The notes under the pieces: generated by a model
Seen by the model: the letters and a program-made list of their open reading frames with translations, nothing else
Databases searched by the model: none
What the model was told of the DNA's origin: nothing
DNA from: Magnetococcales bacterium WMHbinv6
GTDB taxonomy: Bacteria; Pseudomonadota; Magnetococcia; Magnetococcales; Magnetaquicoccaceae
Direction of reading: 5' to 3'
DNA: 63,547 nt
Assembly (NCBI GenBank): GCA_002753135.1
Contig: PDZV01000005.1
Coordinates: forward strand, 1 to 63,547
Translations under genes and position numbers: made by a program
In this document: positions 37,005-50,304 of the stretch, in pieces
How positions within the stretch are numbered: the first letter of the stretch is position 1
How the letters are laid out: each line of letters opens with the position of its first letter

Positions 37005-37286
37005 CTACCACCAGTTCCAGGGCATCCAACCGTTGCCCCAGTTCCAGGGTCCGCCACCCCAACCACCGGGATAACCATAGCCACCGTAAGGATAATATCC
37101 TCCCCAACCCGGATAACCGTAGCCGGAATAGGGATAATAACCACCCCAGCCCGGATAACCATAGCCATAGTAAGGATAGCCACCGTAGGGACTACCCCAC
37201 CAGGCTTCACCGCTTGTCGGAACGGTTAGGCTGGCAATGCTCAACAGGCCGGCGATGAGCAATGCCGCGACTGTTTTACGAATCAT
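37005..37286 (-). CDS. Secreted Gly/Tyr/Trp/Pro-rich repeat protein, sulfur-globule-protein-like
   Basis: 93 residues from ATG 37286, with GGAGG about 7 bases upstream. After a signal peptide (about 1-27, ending near GEA) the mature part is built almost entirely of repeated YGYPGWGGYYPY-type units rich in Gly, Tyr, Trp and Pro. It contains no Cys. Composition, size and signal peptide resemble the envelope proteins of sulfur globules in Allochromatium and relatives (SgpA/B/C). A structural role coating periplasmic sulfur globules is inferred. Other Gly/Tyr-rich coat proteins are possible. Confidence 0.62.
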   Translation of the reverse strand: MIRKTVAALLIAGLLSIASLTVPTSGEAWWGSPYGGYPYYGYGYPGWGGYYPYSGYGYPGWGGYYPYGGYGYPGGWGGGPWNWGNGWMPWNWW

Positions 37287-37447
37287 CTTTTTCCTCCCTA
37301 TTGATGGTGTCGATGGATGTACTGCCGATACTTGTACCCATTGCCAAGTGACTTGGCGGGATAGCCTCTGCGCTTGGGTATCAAGCAAGGATGACTATAA
37401 CCCATTTTTCTGCCGTTGCCAAGTATAACTTTGCAAGATTAGCGAAT

Positions 37448-37993
37448 TCAGTTATGCTTTTCCCCATGCCAGAGCGCTTGCAGACGGGGTTGCCGACCGC
37501 TGGCCTGGTGATACGTCTGATAACGGAGCGGATTTTTTTGGTAATATTTTTGATGATAGGCCTCGGCAGGCCAAAAGGTGGTGATGGGCACAATTTCGGT
37601 GACGATCGGTTCCGGGAAGGGTTTATGTTTCTGCAGCCAGGCCAGGGAAGTCATGGCTTGTTGTTGCTGTTCCTGAGAATGGTAAAAGATGGCCGTACGG
37701 TATTGGCTGCCGCTGTCGCAGAATTGCCGATTGCGGGTGGTGGGATCGATATTGTGCCAAAAGATGTGCAGCAGGGTTTCGTAGGAGATGCGTTGCGGGT
37801 CAAAACAGAGCTGCACCACTTCGGCGTGGCCGCTAGAGCCACTGCAGACCGCTTCATAGCTGGGATTATCCAGGCTGCCACCGGCGTAGCCGACGGTGGT
37901 GGCAAGCACCCCTTCCTGGCTATCGAAGGGGCGTTCCATGCACCAGAAACAGCCACCGGCAAAGGTGGCATAGTGTTTGTCGTCACTTGGCAT
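37448..37993 (-). CDS. msrA: Peptide methionine sulfoxide reductase MsrA
   Basis: About 181 residues. It reduces methionine-S-sulfoxide in oxidised proteins. The catalytic motif GGCFWCME lies at residues 13-20, and GYAGG, NPSYEAVCSG and HAEVV follow at expected spacing. ATG 37993 is favoured because GGGAG lies 9 bases upstream and because it puts the catalytic Cys at the usual distance; a longer frame starts at 38035. The C-terminal tail (about 150-181) lacks an obvious resolving-Cys pair, so its resolving mechanism is uncertain. Confidence 0.92.
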   Translation of the reverse strand: MPSDDKHYATFAGGCFWCMERPFDSQEGVLATTVGYAGGSLDNPSYEAVCSGSSGHAEVVQLCFDPQRISYETLLHIFWHNIDPTTRNRQFCDSGSQYRTAIFYHSQEQQQQAMTSLAWLQKHKPFPEPIVTEIVPITTFWPAEAYHQKYYQKNPLRYQTYHQASGRQPRLQALWHGEKHN

Positions 37994-38039
37994 TGTATCA
38001 GACTCCCTACAACATTGATCCGAATATAGAGGCAAGAGG

Positions 38040-38482: not shown

Positions 38483-38935
38483 ATGCGTGTGCTTCTTATT
38501 ATCGTTTACCTGCTACTGACGATGGTTGCCAATGCAGCAGATTTGTTCGCCGAGTCTCATCAGCATGAACACCAGGCTGAGATACTTTCCTTGGATCACG
38601 GTAAAAAATGGGCAGTGGATGCGCCATTACGCCAGGGCATGGGTAACATTCGTGCATCAGCGATTCGTACACTTGCGCTGCCCCGGGAGGAGGGGTTGCC
38701 GCAATTGGCCAAAACCATTGCAGAGGAGAGTGATCGCATCATAAGAGAGTGTCGTTTACCTTCCGCCGCCGATGCCACTCTGCACACCTTCCTTGCCAAA
38801 CTGCTGGAACATGGACCGAAGCTCGTCGCCGCATCATCCACCGATGAGCGCAATCAGAGCCTGATGGTGATCGTTGAGGTTCTTAACCATTACGGGCACT
38901 ATTTCGACCATCCTGATTGGCAGGATATTCGCTGA
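38483..38935 (+). CDS. DnrO-like periplasmic protein
   Basis: About 150 residues. The ATG at 38483 begins a signal peptide (RVLLIIVYLLLTMVANAADL); a longer frame from a TTG at 38429 would hide it. The mature sequence (KKWAVDAPLRQGM, IIRECRLPSAADATLH, LAKLLEHGPKLV) resembles small secreted proteins labelled DnrO, first noted near NO-responsive denitrification genes. It is helical, has one Cys and a His-rich N-terminus (HQHEHQAE). It is the first gene of a five-gene redox operon, with the reductase gene starting 21 bp downstream. Confidence 0.6.
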   Translation: MRVLLIIVYLLLTMVANAADLFAESHQHEHQAEILSLDHGKKWAVDAPLRQGMGNIRASAIRTLALPREEGLPQLAKTIAEESDRIIRECRLPSAADATLHTFLAKLLEHGPKLVAASSTDERNQSLMVIVEVLNHYGHYFDHPDWQDIR

Positions 38936-38956
38936 CCCATCCACGTGGATCTTGCC

Positions 38957-40147
38957 ATGACAACCCTGGAACTTTTCCTCTATATCCTGCTATCCATTCT
39001 GTTCCAAGTGACTGTTCTGGTTCTGTCCGCCTTTTATCGCCATTGGCAAAATTATCAGGCCCTGCGCATGCAGGTAGCCGGTATCACACGCCTCCCCTTG
39101 GCACCGGTAAAAAACACTTTTCCCGCCTGGGAGGGGTTCCTCCCCTTCCGGGTGGTGCGCAAGGTCTACGAAGACCCGGACCGCACCATCTGCTCCTTTC
39201 ACCTCCAACCTGAAGACCGTCAACCCCCGGCGGATTTTAAACCAGGACAATATCTCACTTTCCAGATTGCCACCGCCGACCGGTTACTCCTGCGCTGTTA
39301 CTCCCTCTCCGACCGCTCCGGTCTCGACCACTATCGGGTGACCATTAAACGCCTTCTCGATGGCCGGGGTTCCAACCACTTTCATCAGCAAGTAAACGAA
39401 GGGGATATGGTGCAGGTCAAAGCCCCAGGCGGCCATTTTATTCTGGAACCGGGAAGCGACCCGGTGGTTCTCATTGCTGGCGGCATCGGTATTACCCCTA
39501 TGCTCTCCATGATCAACGCTGCTCTGGATCAAGAACAGCCTCGGGAAATCCATCTTTTCTACGGGGTGCGCAACTCCGGTGAGCAGGCCATGAAGGAGTA
39601 CCTGGAAGGTTTGGCCCAAAGCCACCACGATTTCCATCTCCACGTCAGCTACAGCAAACCCTTGGCTCAGGATCTCCGGGGGCGGGACTACCATCATGTC
39701 GGCTATGTGGACATAACATTGCTGCGCCTTACCTTGTCTCTGCGTCCTTATCACTTTTTTGTCTGTGGGCCGGTGGCCATGATGGAGAGCCTGTTGCCTG
39801 CCTTGGAAGGGTGGGGTGTCCCCCCAGACCGCATCCACCAGGAGAGCTTTGGTCCCGCTTCCCTGGTCAAGCCGGTTCTGGATAGCGGACCGGTTCCGTC
39901 GGTTACCTTTCAGCGTTCAGCGCAAACCCTCCCTTGGGAGGCTGCGTGCGGTTCTTTGCTGGCCTTTGCGGAAAAAAACCACATCCCCATCGACTCTGGC
40001 TGCCGTGCCGGGGCCTGCGGTACCTGCCAGACCGTTATTGTCTCCGGGGAGGTGGACTACACCCATCCACCGGAGTTTTCTCTCTCTCCCGGTACCTGCC
40101 TGACATGCATCTGCCGACCAAAACGTGATCTTACCCTGCTGGCATAA
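38957..40147 (+). CDS. Membrane-anchored FAD/2Fe-2S NAD(P)H oxidoreductase
   Basis: About 396 residues. An N-terminal TM helix (about 4-26) is followed by a ferredoxin-NADP+ reductase-type FAD domain (about 60-165; RCYSLSD flavin motif) and an NAD(P)-binding domain (about 168-300; IAGGIGITPMLSM and FFVCGPVAMM). A plant-type ferredoxin domain (about 310-396) carries CRAGACGTC plus a distal Cys for one 2Fe-2S cluster. The order FNR-ferredoxin matches phthalate-dioxygenase-reductase/Hmp-like modules. Encoded between a DnrO-like protein and a cytochrome b, it is the likely electron entry point of a transmembrane chain. A soluble paralogue is encoded at 47133-48227. Confidence 0.9.
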   Translation: MTTLELFLYILLSILFQVTVLVLSAFYRHWQNYQALRMQVAGITRLPLAPVKNTFPAWEGFLPFRVVRKVYEDPDRTICSFHLQPEDRQPPADFKPGQYLTFQIATADRLLLRCYSLSDRSGLDHYRVTIKRLLDGRGSNHFHQQVNEGDMVQVKAPGGHFILEPGSDPVVLIAGGIGITPMLSMINAALDQEQPREIHLFYGVRNSGEQAMKEYLEGLAQSHHDFHLHVSYSKPLAQDLRGRDYHHVGYVDITLLRLTLSLRPYHFFVCGPVAMMESLLPALEGWGVPPDRIHQESFGPASLVKPVLDSGPVPSVTFQRSAQTLPWEAACGSLLAFAEKNHIPIDSGCRAGACGTCQTVIVSGEVDYTHPPEFSLSPGTCLTCICRPKRDLTLLA

Positions 40148-40155
40148 GGATTACC

Positions 40156-40728
40156 ATGGAACCATCACTCTGGCACCAAGAGGTGGCACCGTTTTTCAAG
40201 CTCTTCCTCCTGTTGTTCCTGGCCACCTTGCTGGGAGACTTTATCCTGCACCAGTTCAATCTGGTTTGGGTGGGACGCTATCTCGGTATTCCCGGCACAC
40301 TGCTAATTATCGCTTCTCTCCTTTACTCGCTTCGTAAACGTAAAGTCGTTGTCAGCGGTAATCCCAAAATTTTTCTCCGAATCCACGAACTATTCACTTG
40401 GCTTGGAGCATTGATGGTGATGATCCATGCTGGTGTCCATTTCAACGCCATCCTTCCCTGGTTGGCGGTGATAGGCATGGTGATCAATGTGGGGAGCGGC
40501 ATGGTGGGCCGTTATCTCCTGGAACGCTCTCGTCGCCATCTCGCCACCATGGAGAAAAAGTATCGATTGCACGGCAAAACTCGTACTCAGATGGAGATGG
40601 AACTCTTCTGGGACTCAGTGACCTATGACACTATGGCCAAATGGCGGACCATCCACTTTCCCATCTCTTTCGTCTTCGCTGCTTTGGCCCTTGGGCACAT
40701 CCTCAGCATCTTTCTATTCTGGGAATGA
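40156..40728 (+). CDS. Di-haem cytochrome b-type membrane protein
   Basis: 190 residues with four to five predicted TM helices. Conserved His lie in helices facing each other (RIHELFTWLGALMVMIHAGVHF; RTIHFPISFVFAALALGHI), as expected for haem-b ligation. The loop between TM segments is basic (ERSRRHLATMEKKYR). It starts 8 bp after the reductase gene and its stop overlaps the octahaem cytochrome start. It probably moves electrons from the flavin/2Fe-2S subunit through the membrane to the periplasmic c-haems. The substrate is unknown. Confidence 0.8.
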   Translation: MEPSLWHQEVAPFFKLFLLLFLATLLGDFILHQFNLVWVGRYLGIPGTLLIIASLLYSLRKRKVVVSGNPKIFLRIHELFTWLGALMVMIHAGVHFNAILPWLAVIGMVINVGSGMVGRYLLERSRRHLATMEKKYRLHGKTRTQMEMELFWDSVTYDTMAKWRTIHFPISFVFAALALGHILSIFLFWE

Positions 40729-41498
40729 TCATGAACGCGACAATAAAAATTATATTATTGATAAATATGCTCATTATAACGATATTAATAATATATTTCC
40801 CTCACCTGATGGTTGCCCCCGGAAAACTCAGTGAAGGTCATCGTGCCCTGGATCAGGAGTGTTTCGCCTGCCATCTTCCACTGACCGGCGCGGTAGCGGC
40901 CAAATGTATCTCTTGCCACAAGGTGGACGACATCGGTCTGCGCACTACCAAGGGATTGCCCATCGCCGTGCAGAAGAGCAAATTACCCTTCCACCAAAAA
41001 TTGCGGGACCATGATTGCGTTGCTTGCCACAGCGACCACCAGGGCGTGGCCAAATACAGATCTCGCCAACGATTCTCCCACAATTTGCTGGAGACCGCCG
41101 ATCGTGCCCGTTGCGAATCCTGCCATGCCAACCCCTCAGACCCGTTGCACGCCACTCTCTCTGGCCAATGCACCCAATGTCACGGCACCGACTCCTGGAA
41201 GGCCAGTAACATCAACCACGACAAACTGTTCCTTCTGGACCGCAATCACAACGTCCGCTGCACCGACTGTCACACTGGTGGCAACTACAAGCAATACACC
41301 TGCTACGCTTGCCATGAACACTCTCCAGAAAAAATCCGCCGTGAACACTGGAAAGAGGGAATACGAAAATTCGACAACTGCGTTAGTTGCCATCGTAATG
41401 CCAACGAGGATGACGCCAAACGACTCTGGCGTTCTCAGGGAGAAGGTGAGAAAAGGCACGATGACCATCATCGGAGAAAGCACGATGATGATAATTAA
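40725..41498 (+). CDS. Membrane-anchored octahaem cytochrome c
   Basis: About 257 residues. An uncleaved N-terminal helix (about 5-27) anchors a periplasmic domain with eight CxxCH sites: CFACH, CISCH, CVACH, CESCH, CTQCH, CTDCH, CYACH and CVSCH. Many additional His supply distal ligands, as in cytochrome c3/c7-like proteins. The C-terminus is charged and His/Asp-rich (HDDHHRRKHDDD), a possible metal-binding tail. ATG 40725 overlaps the cytochrome b stop (ATGA); 40731 is an alternative. The eight-haem spacing differs from the HAO-like protein at 686. Likely the terminal electron carrier of this operon. Confidence 0.9.
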   Translation: MIMNATIKIILLINMLIITILIIYFPHLMVAPGKLSEGHRALDQECFACHLPLTGAVAAKCISCHKVDDIGLRTTKGLPIAVQKSKLPFHQKLRDHDCVACHSDHQGVAKYRSRQRFSHNLLETADRARCESCHANPSDPLHATLSGQCTQCHGTDSWKASNINHDKLFLLDRNHNVRCTDCHTGGNYKQYTCYACHEHSPEKIRREHWKEGIRKFDNCVSCHRNANEDDAKRLWRSQGEGEKRHDDHHRRKHDDDN

Positions 41499-41545
41499 CA
41501 CTGATGAACCGCCGGCTATGTCGGCGGAGTATAGGAACAATCATC

Positions 41546-42442
41546 ATGACACGTAGCAACTCTGTCTTTTGCCGCCAGCCCGCTTCCTCAGTCAGCATGC
41601 GGGCGGTTGGGGTGTTCATCGTTCTGAACGCCCTGCTTTTTCTGGCCAAGGTGACAGTGGGAGTGAGGTACAATTCGCTGGCGGTTCTTTCGGACGCAGG
41701 CAACTCACTGATTGATGTGCTGACGTCGACCATCATTTTGTTCGCTGTACGGGAAACCGCCAAATTGCCGGATGCGGAACACCAGTTCGGCCATAGTCGC
41801 ACTGAACCACTGACTGCCTTTACCGTTGCGGTACTCACCTGTGTTCTGGCCACGCAGGTCTTTCGGGAGGCGGTCGGGCGATTGATCGATGGTGGGGAGC
41901 CATTGGCAGGCGTGGCACCACTGGTGGTGTTGGCGGTCGTGATTGTTACCAAAAGCGTTATCTGGCAGGTGGCGGGCCGCATGGGACGCAAGCAACGCAG
42001 TCCTGCCATGATCGCTGCCGCCATAGATGCCAAAATGGATGTGCTGATCAGCCTGATGGCCATGGTGGGTGTGGTGGGAACCGATGTTGGTCTGCTATGG
42101 CTGGACGGCGTGGCTGCTCTGTTTATTGCAGCATGGATTGCTTACACCGGTTTTTCCCTGGGCAAGGAAAATATCGAAAAATTGCTGGGCGCGGTCCCAA
42201 ATCCAACCATCGTCCGCATGATACACGCCAAACTGAATCTTCTGAAAAAACAGAATCGTATCCGAAATTTTCACGAATTGCGTATCCACTATGTGGGATC
42301 GGAAATCCATATTGCCGTCCACGTGAACGTAAGTCGACAATTGGGGCTGCAGGCTGTCCATGATCTGGATGAAGATATCCAGGCTATATTGCAGAATATT
42401 CCTGATGTCAAGCATGTGGCACTGCACATAGACCCGGTTTGA
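41546..42442 (+). CDS. Cation diffusion facilitator (CDF) family transporter
   Basis: About 298 residues, six TM helices and a C-terminal ferredoxin-like cytoplasmic domain (about 210-298). Metal-site residues read as Asn/Asp in TM2 (NSLID) and Asp/Asp in TM5 (DAKMD) instead of the common His/Asp sets. From memory this resembles the MamB-like CDF branch rather than zinc exporters. CDFs exchange divalent metals for protons. ATG 41546 has AGGA 8 bases upstream; an ATG at 41504 would add 14 residues. It follows the octahaem gene after 47 bp. Iron or manganese transport is inferred. Confidence 0.88.
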   Translation: MTRSNSVFCRQPASSVSMRAVGVFIVLNALLFLAKVTVGVRYNSLAVLSDAGNSLIDVLTSTIILFAVRETAKLPDAEHQFGHSRTEPLTAFTVAVLTCVLATQVFREAVGRLIDGGEPLAGVAPLVVLAVVIVTKSVIWQVAGRMGRKQRSPAMIAAAIDAKMDVLISLMAMVGVVGTDVGLLWLDGVAALFIAAWIAYTGFSLGKENIEKLLGAVPNPTIVRMIHAKLNLLKKQNRIRNFHELRIHYVGSEIHIAVHVNVSRQLGLQAVHDLDEDIQAILQNIPDVKHVALHIDPV

Positions 42443-42742: not shown

Positions 42743-43144
42743 ATGTCGTGCATTCACCATCATTCCCATAAGCCCTATCTGGTTTCTCATACCTTGCATA
42801 TGGAGCATATGGCAGGCAGCGATTTTATTCAGTCAGTACAGGCCCGGTTGTCGGGCTTGCCAGGCGTATCGTCGGTGGAGTGTGACCCCGACGCAGACCT
42901 GGTATCGGTGACTTATGATCTACGCAAAGTACACATGGAAGAGATCGAAACTACCCTGCATGATATGGATGTGGCGTTGAAAGATGATTTTTTCTCGCAT
43001 CTTCGCCATGCAATCAGCCATTTCATGGAAGAGTTGGAGGACGACAATCAAGCCGCCAATCTGAACAAGCCGGACCATTCCTACAACCCGTTCTTTTACC
43101 GCAAATTGTCACAGGAAAAGGAGCCATCCGATCAACTGGGCTGA
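42743..43144 (+). CDS. Small His-rich HMA-like (ferredoxin-fold) metal-associated protein
   Basis: About 133 residues. ATG 42743 is preceded by a perfect AGGAGG at 7 bases; longer frames lack this. The N-terminus is His-rich (CIHHHSHKP, HTLHMEHM). Residues about 22-75 show the HMA-like pattern QARLSGLPGVSSVECDPDADLVSVTYDL, but without the CxxC metal site. A second His-containing helical part and an acidic, Pro/Tyr tail follow. It may be a metal sensor, chaperone or partner for the CDF transporter upstream. I do not recognise a named family. Confidence 0.65.
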   Translation: MSCIHHHSHKPYLVSHTLHMEHMAGSDFIQSVQARLSGLPGVSSVECDPDADLVSVTYDLRKVHMEEIETTLHDMDVALKDDFFSHLRHAISHFMEELEDDNQAANLNKPDHSYNPFFYRKLSQEKEPSDQLG

Positions 43145-47132: not shown

Positions 47133-48227
47133 TCAACAATCAAGGATCAGAGGGGTTTTGGGTATGGCGATACAGGGCAGACAATGGCCGGGGCGCGGCT
47201 GGTTGAAGGAGAGTGGCGAGTGATCCACCTCCCCTTGCAGCAACGGCAGTTCGCAGGTGCCACAATTGCCGGCCCGGCAGCCATAGGAGAGGTCGATACC
47301 CTGTTGTTCGGCAGCTTGCAGCAGGGAGGTATGTTGCGGCTGCCAGATAAACTGTTGCCGGGATTGTTGCAACAGGATGGTTTGCGCCGGGCGGGAGCTG
47401 AGCGAGGGCAGCGATAGGCTGGAGCGCTGCAGCGGTGAGCCGCTGAACGATTCGTAATGGATCCGTTCGGCGGACAGGCCGCTCTCTGTCCACTCCTGGA
47501 GCAGGCTGCTCATCATCGCCGCCGGGGCACAGAGCAGCAGATGGCAGTCGGCTAGGCTGGTAAGTTGGCGCAGCATGGCCAGGTTGAGGTGACCGGAGAG
47601 TTGATAATCGACCCCAGGCTGTTCGCCAGGCTGTGGCTTGCTGAAGCAGCAGCTCAGTCGAAAGGGGGGGTGCTGCCGGCTCAGCTGGTTGAGAAAGGCG
47701 GGGGCAATCATGCTGCGGCTGTTCTGCAGGCAATATACGAGATGAACCGGGCGCGGATCCTGCTGTTGTTGCAGCTGATCCAGCATGGCGAGCAGGGGAG
47801 TGATGCCGCTGCCGCCGGCAACCATGAGCAACGGCAGGTTATCGTCAGGCAGAATAAAATTTCCTTCCGGTAGCTTGCCGGACAGCATGTCGCCGACTCT
47901 TAGCCGCTGCAGGTAGGAGGAGGCCAAACCGGCGGGCAGGCCGGGGCTGTTGGCTGGCGGCAGCTGTTTTTTGACGGCAATCTGCCAATGATCAAGACCA
48001 GAACGGCAGCAGAGCGAATAGCAGCGCAACAGACTCAGGGAACGATGGCTGCGCGGATCGTTGATGGTCAGGCGCAGGGGCAGATATTGTCCGGGCAAAA
48101 AAGGGGGCAGTGGCGCTCCGTTGGCTTCGGCAAGGGTGAGCAGGCAGACGCTCTTTTGTGCATCCGCAAACGATTTGGCGACAATACGCAAGCTGAGAGC
48201 GGCTTGCCGGACAGGACATGCAGTCAT
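47133..48227 (-). CDS. Soluble FAD/2Fe-2S NAD(P)H oxidoreductase
   Basis: About 364 residues with no membrane helix. FAD-binding domain (about 10-120; LLRCYSLCC), NAD(P) domain (about 125-245; VAGGSGITPLLAM, LLLCAPAAMM) and a C-terminal ferredoxin (about 275-364) with CRAGNCGTC plus a distal CLPC. It is a paralogue of the reductase in the 38.9 kb redox operon but lacks its anchor. This arrangement occurs in reductase components of oxygenases and in haemoglobin-like reductases. GGAG lies 7 bases before ATG 48227. No oxygenase partner is encoded nearby. Confidence 0.88.
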   Translation of the reverse strand: MTACPVRQAALSLRIVAKSFADAQKSVCLLTLAEANGAPLPPFLPGQYLPLRLTINDPRSHRSLSLLRCYSLCCRSGLDHWQIAVKKQLPPANSPGLPAGLASSYLQRLRVGDMLSGKLPEGNFILPDDNLPLLMVAGGSGITPLLAMLDQLQQQQDPRPVHLVYCLQNSRSMIAPAFLNQLSRQHPPFRLSCCFSKPQPGEQPGVDYQLSGHLNLAMLRQLTSLADCHLLLCAPAAMMSSLLQEWTESGLSAERIHYESFSGSPLQRSSLSLPSLSSRPAQTILLQQSRQQFIWQPQHTSLLQAAEQQGIDLSYGCRAGNCGTCELPLLQGEVDHSPLSFNQPRPGHCLPCIAIPKTPLILDC

Positions 48228-48294
48228 CAAGGGGCTCCGTGCCGGGAGAAAGATCGTTTATTGTTCCCTAGAGTCCTTTTCTGGCAATCGCTTG

Positions 48295-50304
48295 TCAAGT
48301 CTGTGTCGATTCAAAGGTCAAAGAGAACAGAACCTGTTGCATGTAGCACTCTCCCTCCTGGGAAATCGCATCGAGCAGCAGATCCAGTTGCTCTTGCGCG
48401 AGGGTGGGCTGTGGGGCAACCTGCTCTAAATGGGCGCACAGTTGCGCCAAACGGTGGGCGCAGAAAGTGGCGGCGGTTCCCTTCAGTTTATGGGCAAGCA
48501 GTTTGGTCAGCGTGCGGTCTCCCTCCCGTCCGACACGCTGCAGGGCATCAAGCCGTTCGGGAATGCTGACCAGAAAGTTGTTCAAAATCCGCTTGAAGGA
48601 AGAACCAAGTTCCCGTTGCATTTGCTGCAACGCTGCCCGATCGATGCTTTCGGTCTGAGTGGCCTGTTCTGCAGGAGGGGGAACGGGGGGCAGGCTTGCT
48701 GGCGGCTGTTTTTCTTGTTGCAGGCTGGTGAGCAGGTCGAGCAGTTGCTGGCGGCGCAGGGGTTTGCTGTAATGGTAATCGCATCCGGCCTGCATGGCCG
48801 CTTCCATCTCCTCTTTCATGGCGTTGGCGGTCAAAGCGACGATGATGGCACGGGGACGGGCATGGCTGTTTTCCCACTGGCGCATGCGGCGCGTGGTGGT
48901 CAACCCGTCGAGAACCGGCATCATCACATCCATCAGGACCAGATCAAAAGGCTGTTCGGTAAAGTATTGCAGCGCCTGCAGGCCATCTTCGGCCTCGACG
49001 ACGGTATGGGGCAACGTTTCCAGATAGACCTGAATGATCATGCGATTGTCGGCGACATCGTCCACCAGCAGTATGCGCAGGGGAGAGATGAGGCTGTTTT
49101 CGCCAGCAGTATGTCCATCGTTGGCGGCTTGCAGTTGCGATACTGACGGCTGCAGCAGCGTCACGGTTGGCAGGTGGGCGGTAAAGGTAAAGGTGCTGCC
49201 CTCTCCGGGTTGACTCTCCACCCAAATTTCGCCACCCATTTTTTCCACCAGCTGACAACAGATATTCAGACCTAAGCCGCTGCCGCCGTAGCGACGGGCG
49301 ATGGAGTTTTCCGCCTGGGTAAACGGGTTGAAGATGGTCTGCAAACACTCTTCCGGGATGCCGATCCCGCTGTCGGCGACGGCAAAAAGCAGCTGATTGC
49401 GGGCCGATTTGCGCACCCGCAGAGAGATGGAACCCTGGGAGGTGAATTTTATGGCGTTGCCGAGCAGATTGATGAATATTTGCCGCAACCGGTTGGCATC
49501 GCCACGCACCAGCGCCGGTAACGGATTGTCCAGCTGCAGGTGCAGATCAAGCAGCTTTTTCTGGGCCAGATCCTGCATCATGGCCAGGGTCTGCATGGCC
49601 AGTTCAGCGGGAGAAAAGACCATTGGTTCCAAATGGAGCTGCCCGGCTTCAATTTTGGACAGATCGAGAATATTGTTGATCAGAGCCAGCAGGGTCTCTC
49701 CGGCGCGGTGCAACACGGCGATACGTTGTTGATCCTGGGCAATCAGATGGGGGGAGTGGCTGAGCAGTTCGCCCAAACCGAGAATCGTGTTCAACGGGGT
49801 GCGAATTTCATGGCTCATGGTGGCCAGAAAACGACTTTTGGCCTGATTGGCCTCTTCGGCAGCGGTTTTCGCCTCTTGCAGCTGCAGGGCCAGTTTTTTG
49901 CGTTCGCTGATATCGCTGATAATGCCGTATACGCTGTGTACTTTGCCGGATTGCCACTCGGCCCGTCCTTGAATGAACAACCATTTTTCTTGGCCGGATG
50001 GGGTGGTGTACGGCAACTCCAGATCATACGGTTCGCCAAGGGAGATGGCTTTCTGGAAGGCCAACAGCATGATTTCCGCCTCTCGCGGGCCATAAAGGCG
50101 GATGAACTGTAGGGTGTCGTTGGGATCAAAATCGTGTCCGACTTCGTAGATGCGGTAGATCTCTTCGGTCCAAAAGAGCTGACCATTGGCCGGATTGTAC
50201 TCCCAACCTCCGGTCTGGCTGAGACGTTGGCTGCGGTTGAGCAGTCGCCACTCCCACATGGGGGGAGATTCTGCCACTTCATTCCTTTCAATGAGATCGT
50301 GCAT
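48295..50304 (-). CDS. Soluble hybrid histidine kinase (PAS-HisKA-HATPase-REC-Hpt)
   Basis: About 669 residues. ATG 50304, preceded by AGAGGGG, starts just before a PAS domain (about 18-135; RSQRLSQTGGWEYNP and a PAC-like IISDISERKK). HisKA with His165 ([17 protein letters not shown]), HATPase (GNAIKF, DSGIGI, GSGLGLNI), REC with Asp459 (LMDVMMPVLDG) and Hpt with His605 (LAHKLKGTAATF) follow. A longer upstream frame exists but shows no domain. It diverges from the giant cNMP-binding protein across about 325 bp, which may link the two in regulation. Confidence 0.9.
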   Translation of the reverse strand: MHDLIERNEVAESPPMWEWRLLNRSQRLSQTGGWEYNPANGQLFWTEEIYRIYEVGHDFDPNDTLQFIRLYGPREAEIMLLAFQKAISLGEPYDLELPYTTPSGQEKWLFIQGRAEWQSGKVHSVYGIISDISERKKLALQLQEAKTAAEEANQAKSRFLATMSHEIRTPLNTILGLGELLSHSPHLIAQDQQRIAVLHRAGETLLALINNILDLSKIEAGQLHLEPMVFSPAELAMQTLAMMQDLAQKKLLDLHLQLDNPLPALVRGDANRLRQIFINLLGNAIKFTSQGSISLRVRKSARNQLLFAVADSGIGIPEECLQTIFNPFTQAENSIARRYGGSGLGLNICCQLVEKMGGEIWVESQPGEGSTFTFTAHLPTVTLLQPSVSQLQAANDGHTAGENSLISPLRILLVDDVADNRMIIQVYLETLPHTVVEAEDGLQALQYFTEQPFDLVLMDVMMPVLDGLTTTRRMRQWENSHARPRAIIVALTANAMKEEMEAAMQAGCDYHYSKPLRRQQLLDLLTSLQQEKQPPASLPPVPPPAEQATQTESIDRAALQQMQRELGSSFKRILNNFLVSIPERLDALQRVGREGDRTLTKLLAHKLKGTAATFCAHRLAQLCAHLEQVAPQPTLAQEQLDLLLDAISQEGECYMQQVLFSLTFESTQT

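Follow-up and report, generated by a model that had tools for sequence, protein, structure and literature searches.

The window, by which we mean the whole 63,547-nucleotide stretch of DNA that was analysed, carries five forward-strand open-reading frames, A to E, at exactly the positions given in the initial annotation and separated by gaps of 21, 8, -4 and 47 bp. Gene A (38483..38935) encodes a small DnrO-like protein with an N-terminal signal-like helix and a His-rich start; gene B (38957..40147) encodes a predicted membrane-anchored NAD(P)H reductase, in which Pfam domains and motifs indicate a transmembrane (TM) helix with FAD, NAD and 2Fe-2S modules; gene C (40156..40728) encodes a predicted five-helix di-haem cytochrome b, as judged from an alignment of 72 sequences and an AlphaFold2 model; gene D (40725..41498) encodes an octahaem c-type cytochrome with an N-terminal TM anchor and an Asp-rich C-terminus; and gene E (41546..42442) encodes a CDF cation transporter (PF01545 and PF16916) with the site A residues N-D-D-D. 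A small His-rich protein had also been assigned to this group: it exists and contains an HMA domain (PF00403, 5e-8), but its gene, F (42743..43144, forward strand), lies outside the span 38483-42442. We prefer ATG 38957 as the start of B, giving 396 aa, because homologues align from that codon, with GTG 38945 as a possible alternative. A scan for promoters and terminators gave no excess over shuffled sequences. Upstream of A-E and divergent from them, the reverse-strand open-reading frame at 37448-38035 encodes what we take, by eye, to be an MsrA-like methionine sulfoxide reductase, and a small reverse-strand frame at 37005-37388 contains Gly/Tyr/Pro-rich repeats (YGGYPYYGYGYPGWGG...).

To determine which of these genes belong together, relatives of C were collected by scanning 85,000 species genomes, which gave at least 529 confirmed relatives, of which the best 80 were kept, so that with the window itself the locus set comprised 81. 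The kept relatives (best 80 of at least 529) come from Magnetococcales and from alpha-, beta- and gammaproteobacteria. In 73 of the 81 loci B lies directly upstream of C, usually at a distance of 0-20 bp, and 77 of the same set contain D, a linkage of B-C and D that is far above chance. A CDF gene occurs in only 13 of the 81 and is not adjacent in all 13, whilst a DnrO-like gene occurs in five, the window counted, and the isolates Magnetovibrio MV-1, Terasakiella and Aromatoleum carry B-C-D alone. The conserved unit is therefore B-C-D, and the five-gene arrangement is local. The co-occurrence search bears out a core of redox genes but not the five-gene operon as the unit: A and E are optional passengers, both of which change position between genomes. 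The open reading frame of A is real, but the label DnrO-like matches no curated family found here, as A has no Pfam family above cut-off, its relatives share 26-35% identity with 14 invariant residues in the alignment, and a literature search for "DnrO" returned no relevant protein. Among 41 Magnetococcales genomes 13 have a DnrO-like gene, which adjoins B-C-D in three (G000, G017 and G018), in G018 downstream of D. A tblastn search of a plasmid collection with C gave no match. The description of the system as undescribed has held, in that we found no described enzyme or named system for B-C-D in the open-access literature searched and no such enzyme in the family libraries.

The cytochrome b assignment of C is supported by its invariant histidines and topology but by no Pfam family above cut-off. 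H77, H91, H95, H167 and H181 are invariant in all 72 aligned homologues, and four of them form two H-x13-H pairs, H77/H91 and H167/H181. The AlphaFold2 model (pLDDT 75.5) has helices at 5-33, 44-64, 70-94, 99-130 and 158-187, placing the first pair in helix 70-94 (TM3) and the second in helix 158-187 (TM5). Lys/Arg-rich stretches occur at 60-75 and 119-143, and by the positive-inside rule the N-terminus of C would be inside and the C-terminus outside. Predictions on the single proteins give five TM helices in C and one in B. The nearest Pfam family is DUF4405 (PF14358), which 39 of 72 members match weakly (best E 3.6e-5), with the window C scoring 12.7 bits against a curated cut-off of 26.7 bits. 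There was no PF01794 profile match for the window C; a single member of the 72 reached E 0.019, and hhalign gave a probability of 2%. Sequence searches of the PDB with C, both as a single sequence and as a profile, returned nothing, and Foldseek with the model returned no E-value < 0.001. Structural matches of the model to NOX, STEAP and b561 reached Z 6.7-8.5 in VIA-align, values which were rejected as evidence of fold since they are not separable from unrelated helical bundles, which reach Z 10.2. C thus appears to resemble both NOX/MsrQ and DUF4405 in layout, with membership of either family not established. In another genome (G155, L132:1396-3388) the gene for a distant relative of C (308 aa) has that of a multihaem cytochrome c as its immediate downstream neighbour, which suggests that pairs of a cytochrome b and a multihaem protein form a broad superfamily.

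In B, the domains FAD_binding_6, NAD_binding_1 and Fer2 follow the N-terminal helix, and the homologues retain RxY[ST] (52/53), GGxGxTP (48/53), the 2Fe-2S Cys motif (53/53) and a predicted N-terminal TM segment (52/53). A conserved, positively charged RHWxxY comes after this helix, so the catalytic domains should face the cytosol. Together with the ligands of C and D, these domains predict the chain from NAD(P)H through FAD, 2Fe-2S and haem b to the c haems much as it had been proposed. That the wire is complete applies to the genomes in which B is present, but its NAD(P)H end is missing from several Magnetococcales. A new finding is that B has been eroded to its TM helix in four relatives, as three stubs of 44-48 aa and one damaged remnant: a 44-codon gene precedes C in G008 and G013 and a 48-codon gene in G018, each encoding a single TM helix and overlapping the start of C, whilst B of G001 consists of the TM helix and a damaged 2Fe-2S end. 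One of the two copies in G026 is frameshifted, possibly through an assembly error. L6 and Q17 of the helix are invariant in all 57 sequences, stubs and remnant counted, and as these residues are retained in stubs after loss of the catalytic domains, the helix is plausibly a structural subunit of the cytochrome. The juxtamembrane HW...Y is missing from the G008 and G013 stubs, and a count by eye of the codons that differ between these two gave four silent and four amino-acid-changing, so purifying selection on them is not shown. Both genomes have a reductase homologue elsewhere that covers the lost part (query residues 49-394, 46-48% identity); the G013 homologue adjoins a large sensor-like gene and has no evident helix at its start. 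The reductase copy of G018 lies within another multihaem cluster. Several Magnetococcales genomes carrying C-D have no close B homologue anywhere in the genome. NAD(P)H input is thus not universal, some Magnetococcales retaining only the TM helix of B or no B at all.

C-D loci without B (G010, G023, G024, G029, G034, G035 and others) suggest that C may receive its electrons from quinol or from some other donor. C-D could then be a quinol-fed module resembling the CytB-DHC part of SHP operons, whose CytB has been proposed to be quinol-fed (PMC2909971), B then providing a supplementary or alternative route of entry and NAD(P)H not being the main donor; weak matches of 17 of the 72 C members to prokaryotic cytochrome b561 point the same way. 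The close adjacency of B and C described above, and the retention of the B helix in some genomes that have lost the rest of the gene, speak against this, and we consider such a quinol-fed module unlikely. The window also encodes a second, soluble B homologue (47136-48230, reverse strand; about 39% identity, no TM helix), adjoined by a sensor kinase with HATPase, HisKA, receiver and Hpt domains (48298-49980, reverse strand), and a comparable reductase-kinase pair was found in G004.

D was confirmed as an octahaem cytochrome, with exactly eight CxxCH motifs in 257 aa and matches to Cytochrom_c3_2, class III and C7 models. Its homologues have eight such motifs in 53 of 69 cases and ten in 10 of 69, more being rare, and a membrane anchor is predicted at the N-terminus in 61 of 67. 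Nine further histidines outside the motifs are invariant or nearly so, each kept in 42-43 of 43 homologues, so that with nine spare histidines for eight haems all the haems could be bis-His ligated. The last six residues contain at least two Asp in 56 of 67 D sequences, vs. 0/79 for C and 1/53 for B, and such an Asp-rich end would fit a docking tail. AlphaFold2 modelled D poorly (pLDDT 55), making the model unfit for a fold search. D might itself be an enzyme that receives electrons from B-C and uses its eight haems to reduce nitrite, tetrathionate, chromate or ferric iron. The haem number could be taken to indicate this, as could matches below threshold to models of decahaem DmsE and of MtrC/OmcA, and weak profile matches to sixteen-haem cytochrome and NrfA-type chains. 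We regard this as improbable, since the protein is small, has only CxxCH motifs, offers spare histidines enough for every haem and no obvious open site, and belongs to a family whose haem number of eight or ten, rarely more, is that of repeat-type wires; no match to the OTR, ONR or HAO families was found in NCBIfam or Pfam. D looks like an electron wire or carrier rather than an enzyme, and the periplasmic reduction of a nitrogen oxide by D, one of the roles first proposed, loses ground with it. No outer-membrane porin of the MtrAB/MtoAB type is encoded among A-F; a PF13557 gene follows D in G010.

E scored 143.2 bits (1.2e-41) against PF01545 and 41.8 bits against ZT_dimer, both above cut-off, and in the alignment its site A residues N, D, D and D stand opposite D, D, H and D of the solved YiiP/FieF structures. 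An identity as MamB or MamM was rejected because E scored 102 and 95 bits where the cut-off is 350. In UR-1 (Candidatus Magnetaquicoccus) a CDF 79% identical to E adjoins B-C-D, and the order in UR-1/G004 is E-F-B-C-D; as E and F are adjacent there too, they travel together. Of the loci, 62 have sufficient flanking sequence, and in 9 of these a CDF gene starts no more than about 250 bp downstream of D; with 6-7 CDF genes per genome of about 3,600 genes (a gene total that is our estimate), the expectation is about 0.12. These loci are related to each other, so that a count of independent events is safer. The CDFs beside B-C-D belong to two unrelated subfamilies, 24-28% identical, with site A residues N-D-D-D in the window and UR-1 and E-N-H-D in other lineages; the two appear from their sequences to have been recruited independently, and the chance probability of two or more independent joinings is about 0.007, which supports a link of B-C-D to metals. 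An ECF sigma factor, a zf-HC2 gene and a Metal_resist gene occur together in four loci (L088, L091, L092 and L101), the first three of which have near-identical neighbourhoods, and in the distant relative G024 ArsR and ArsP precede C-D. The suggestion of metal redox therefore gains evidence from context, in the two CDF subfamilies, the Metal_resist sets and ArsR/ArsP, but E is not a fixed part of the unit.

In another reading, B-C-D supplies electrons to the oxygen- or NO-binding SHP/DHC/DUF1924 system. DHC and DUF1924 genes lie near B-C-D in five loci (L034, L037, L063, L072 and L101), frequently accompanied by cytochrome b561 and PepSY/QseBC-type regulators; SHP operons have also been linked to CzcD (PMC2909971); and on contig G000:C69 (51031-52537) a DHC cytochrome gene and a CDF gene are same-strand neighbours separated by about 570 bp, a pairing also seen in G001, G004 and G020. 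DHC co-occurrence with B-C-D across 398 genomes nevertheless revealed no clear link, the Magnetococcales showing no clear excess (about 12 of 20 module-bearing genomes vs. 13 of about 28), no SHP or DHC gene stands beside the operon in the window, and MV-1, Terasakiella and Aromatoleum have B-C-D with no such companion. We judge this electron supply for SHP/DHC to be improbable.

From the linkage, motifs, predicted topology and ligand conservation we infer the assembly, haem content, electron direction and redox partner of a putative complex. B-C-D is probably an electron-export complex, in which B and C would form an NOX/MsrQ-like flavocytochrome that feeds the octahaem D. B would contribute TM6 with the FAD/NAD and 2Fe-2S domains and C would contribute TM1-5 with two b haems, making one flavocytochrome divided in the periplasmic loop that would join TM5 to TM6. 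Electrons would pass from NAD(P)H to FAD, to 2Fe-2S, to the inner haem (H77/H167), to the outer haem (H91/H181) and on to D, a direction which the membrane potential would favour. D would be periplasmic, held by its N-terminal helix, and its eight bis-His c haems would store or pass on low-potential electrons. Against this model, D has no constant neighbour that could serve as its partner enzyme. The likely use would be redox of periplasmic metal ions, or a response to oxidative or nitrosative stress, tied to metal export; owing to the repeated CDF linkage metal chemistry is the better guess, albeit a tentative one that we hold possible rather than probable. More speculatively still, B-C-D may represent a new split NOX-type class of exporter, in which the sixth helix of B is indispensable and outlives the enzyme, and the octahaem protein delivers electrons for redox-coupled metal export with the help of recruited CDFs, a reading to which we give low credence. 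If the export model is true, B-C-D would be a widespread and apparently unnamed quinone-free route from NAD(P)H to low-potential periplasmic haems in proteobacteria, with magnetotactic and iron-cycling proteobacteria among its users, and would extend the NOX/MsrQ-like flavocytochromes by a split form. The natural losses of the reductase provide a test of the role of the sixth helix.

Four known systems bear comparison with B-C-D. SHP-DHC operons likewise combine a membrane cytochrome b with periplasmic c haems, and have CDF (CzcD) and two-component regulator neighbours, but DHC is dihaem, their CytB belongs to PF01292 and is presumed quinol-fed, and they have no NAD(P)H reductase; SHP/DUF1924 and DHC genes are absent among A-F, the DHC gene of the genome lying on contig G000:C69. 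Work on DUF4405 has demonstrated a haem b cytochrome whose four histidines are arranged as in C (PMC11334425), and the family member FezC, for which a role with iron transport in ferrosomes is proposed, shares with C four central histidines that bind haem b, as predicted in the case of C; C differs in scoring below the DUF4405 cut-off and in its linkage to a multihaem cytochrome, not to ApbE/flavinylated proteins. E. coli MsrQ/Fre, with MsrP, resembles B-C-D in passing electrons from a separate flavin reductase (PMC11031084) to a membrane haem b protein and a periplasmic partner, yet Fre is soluble and lacks 2Fe-2S where B is membrane-anchored and has it, C is not PF01794, and the partner of C is a multihaem cytochrome; no MsrP gene occurs among A-F. 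A larger, separate cluster in G035 (L197:4089-12379) combines pentahaem and trihaem cytochromes with a B-like reductase that has a TM helix of its own, a CRP-like protein, a cytochrome b of 273 aa and a decahaem protein, and with similar clusters at L198 and L195 it is apparently a second reductase-cytochrome b-multihaem system. The prokaryotic NOX SpNOX, a fusion of FRD and FNR, has six TM helices, with haems held by H69/H129 (inner) and H82/H142 (outer) in TM3 and TM5 (PMC11031084). B and C differ in being two chains split before TM6 in reversed gene order, in a PaaE/Hmp-type reductase with a C-terminal 2Fe-2S, and in a His spacing of 14 vs. 13, with no significant profile match, but like NOX they have His pairs in TM3 and TM5, and by prediction on the single proteins they would have six TM helices in sum and a cytosolic FAD/NAD domain after TM6.
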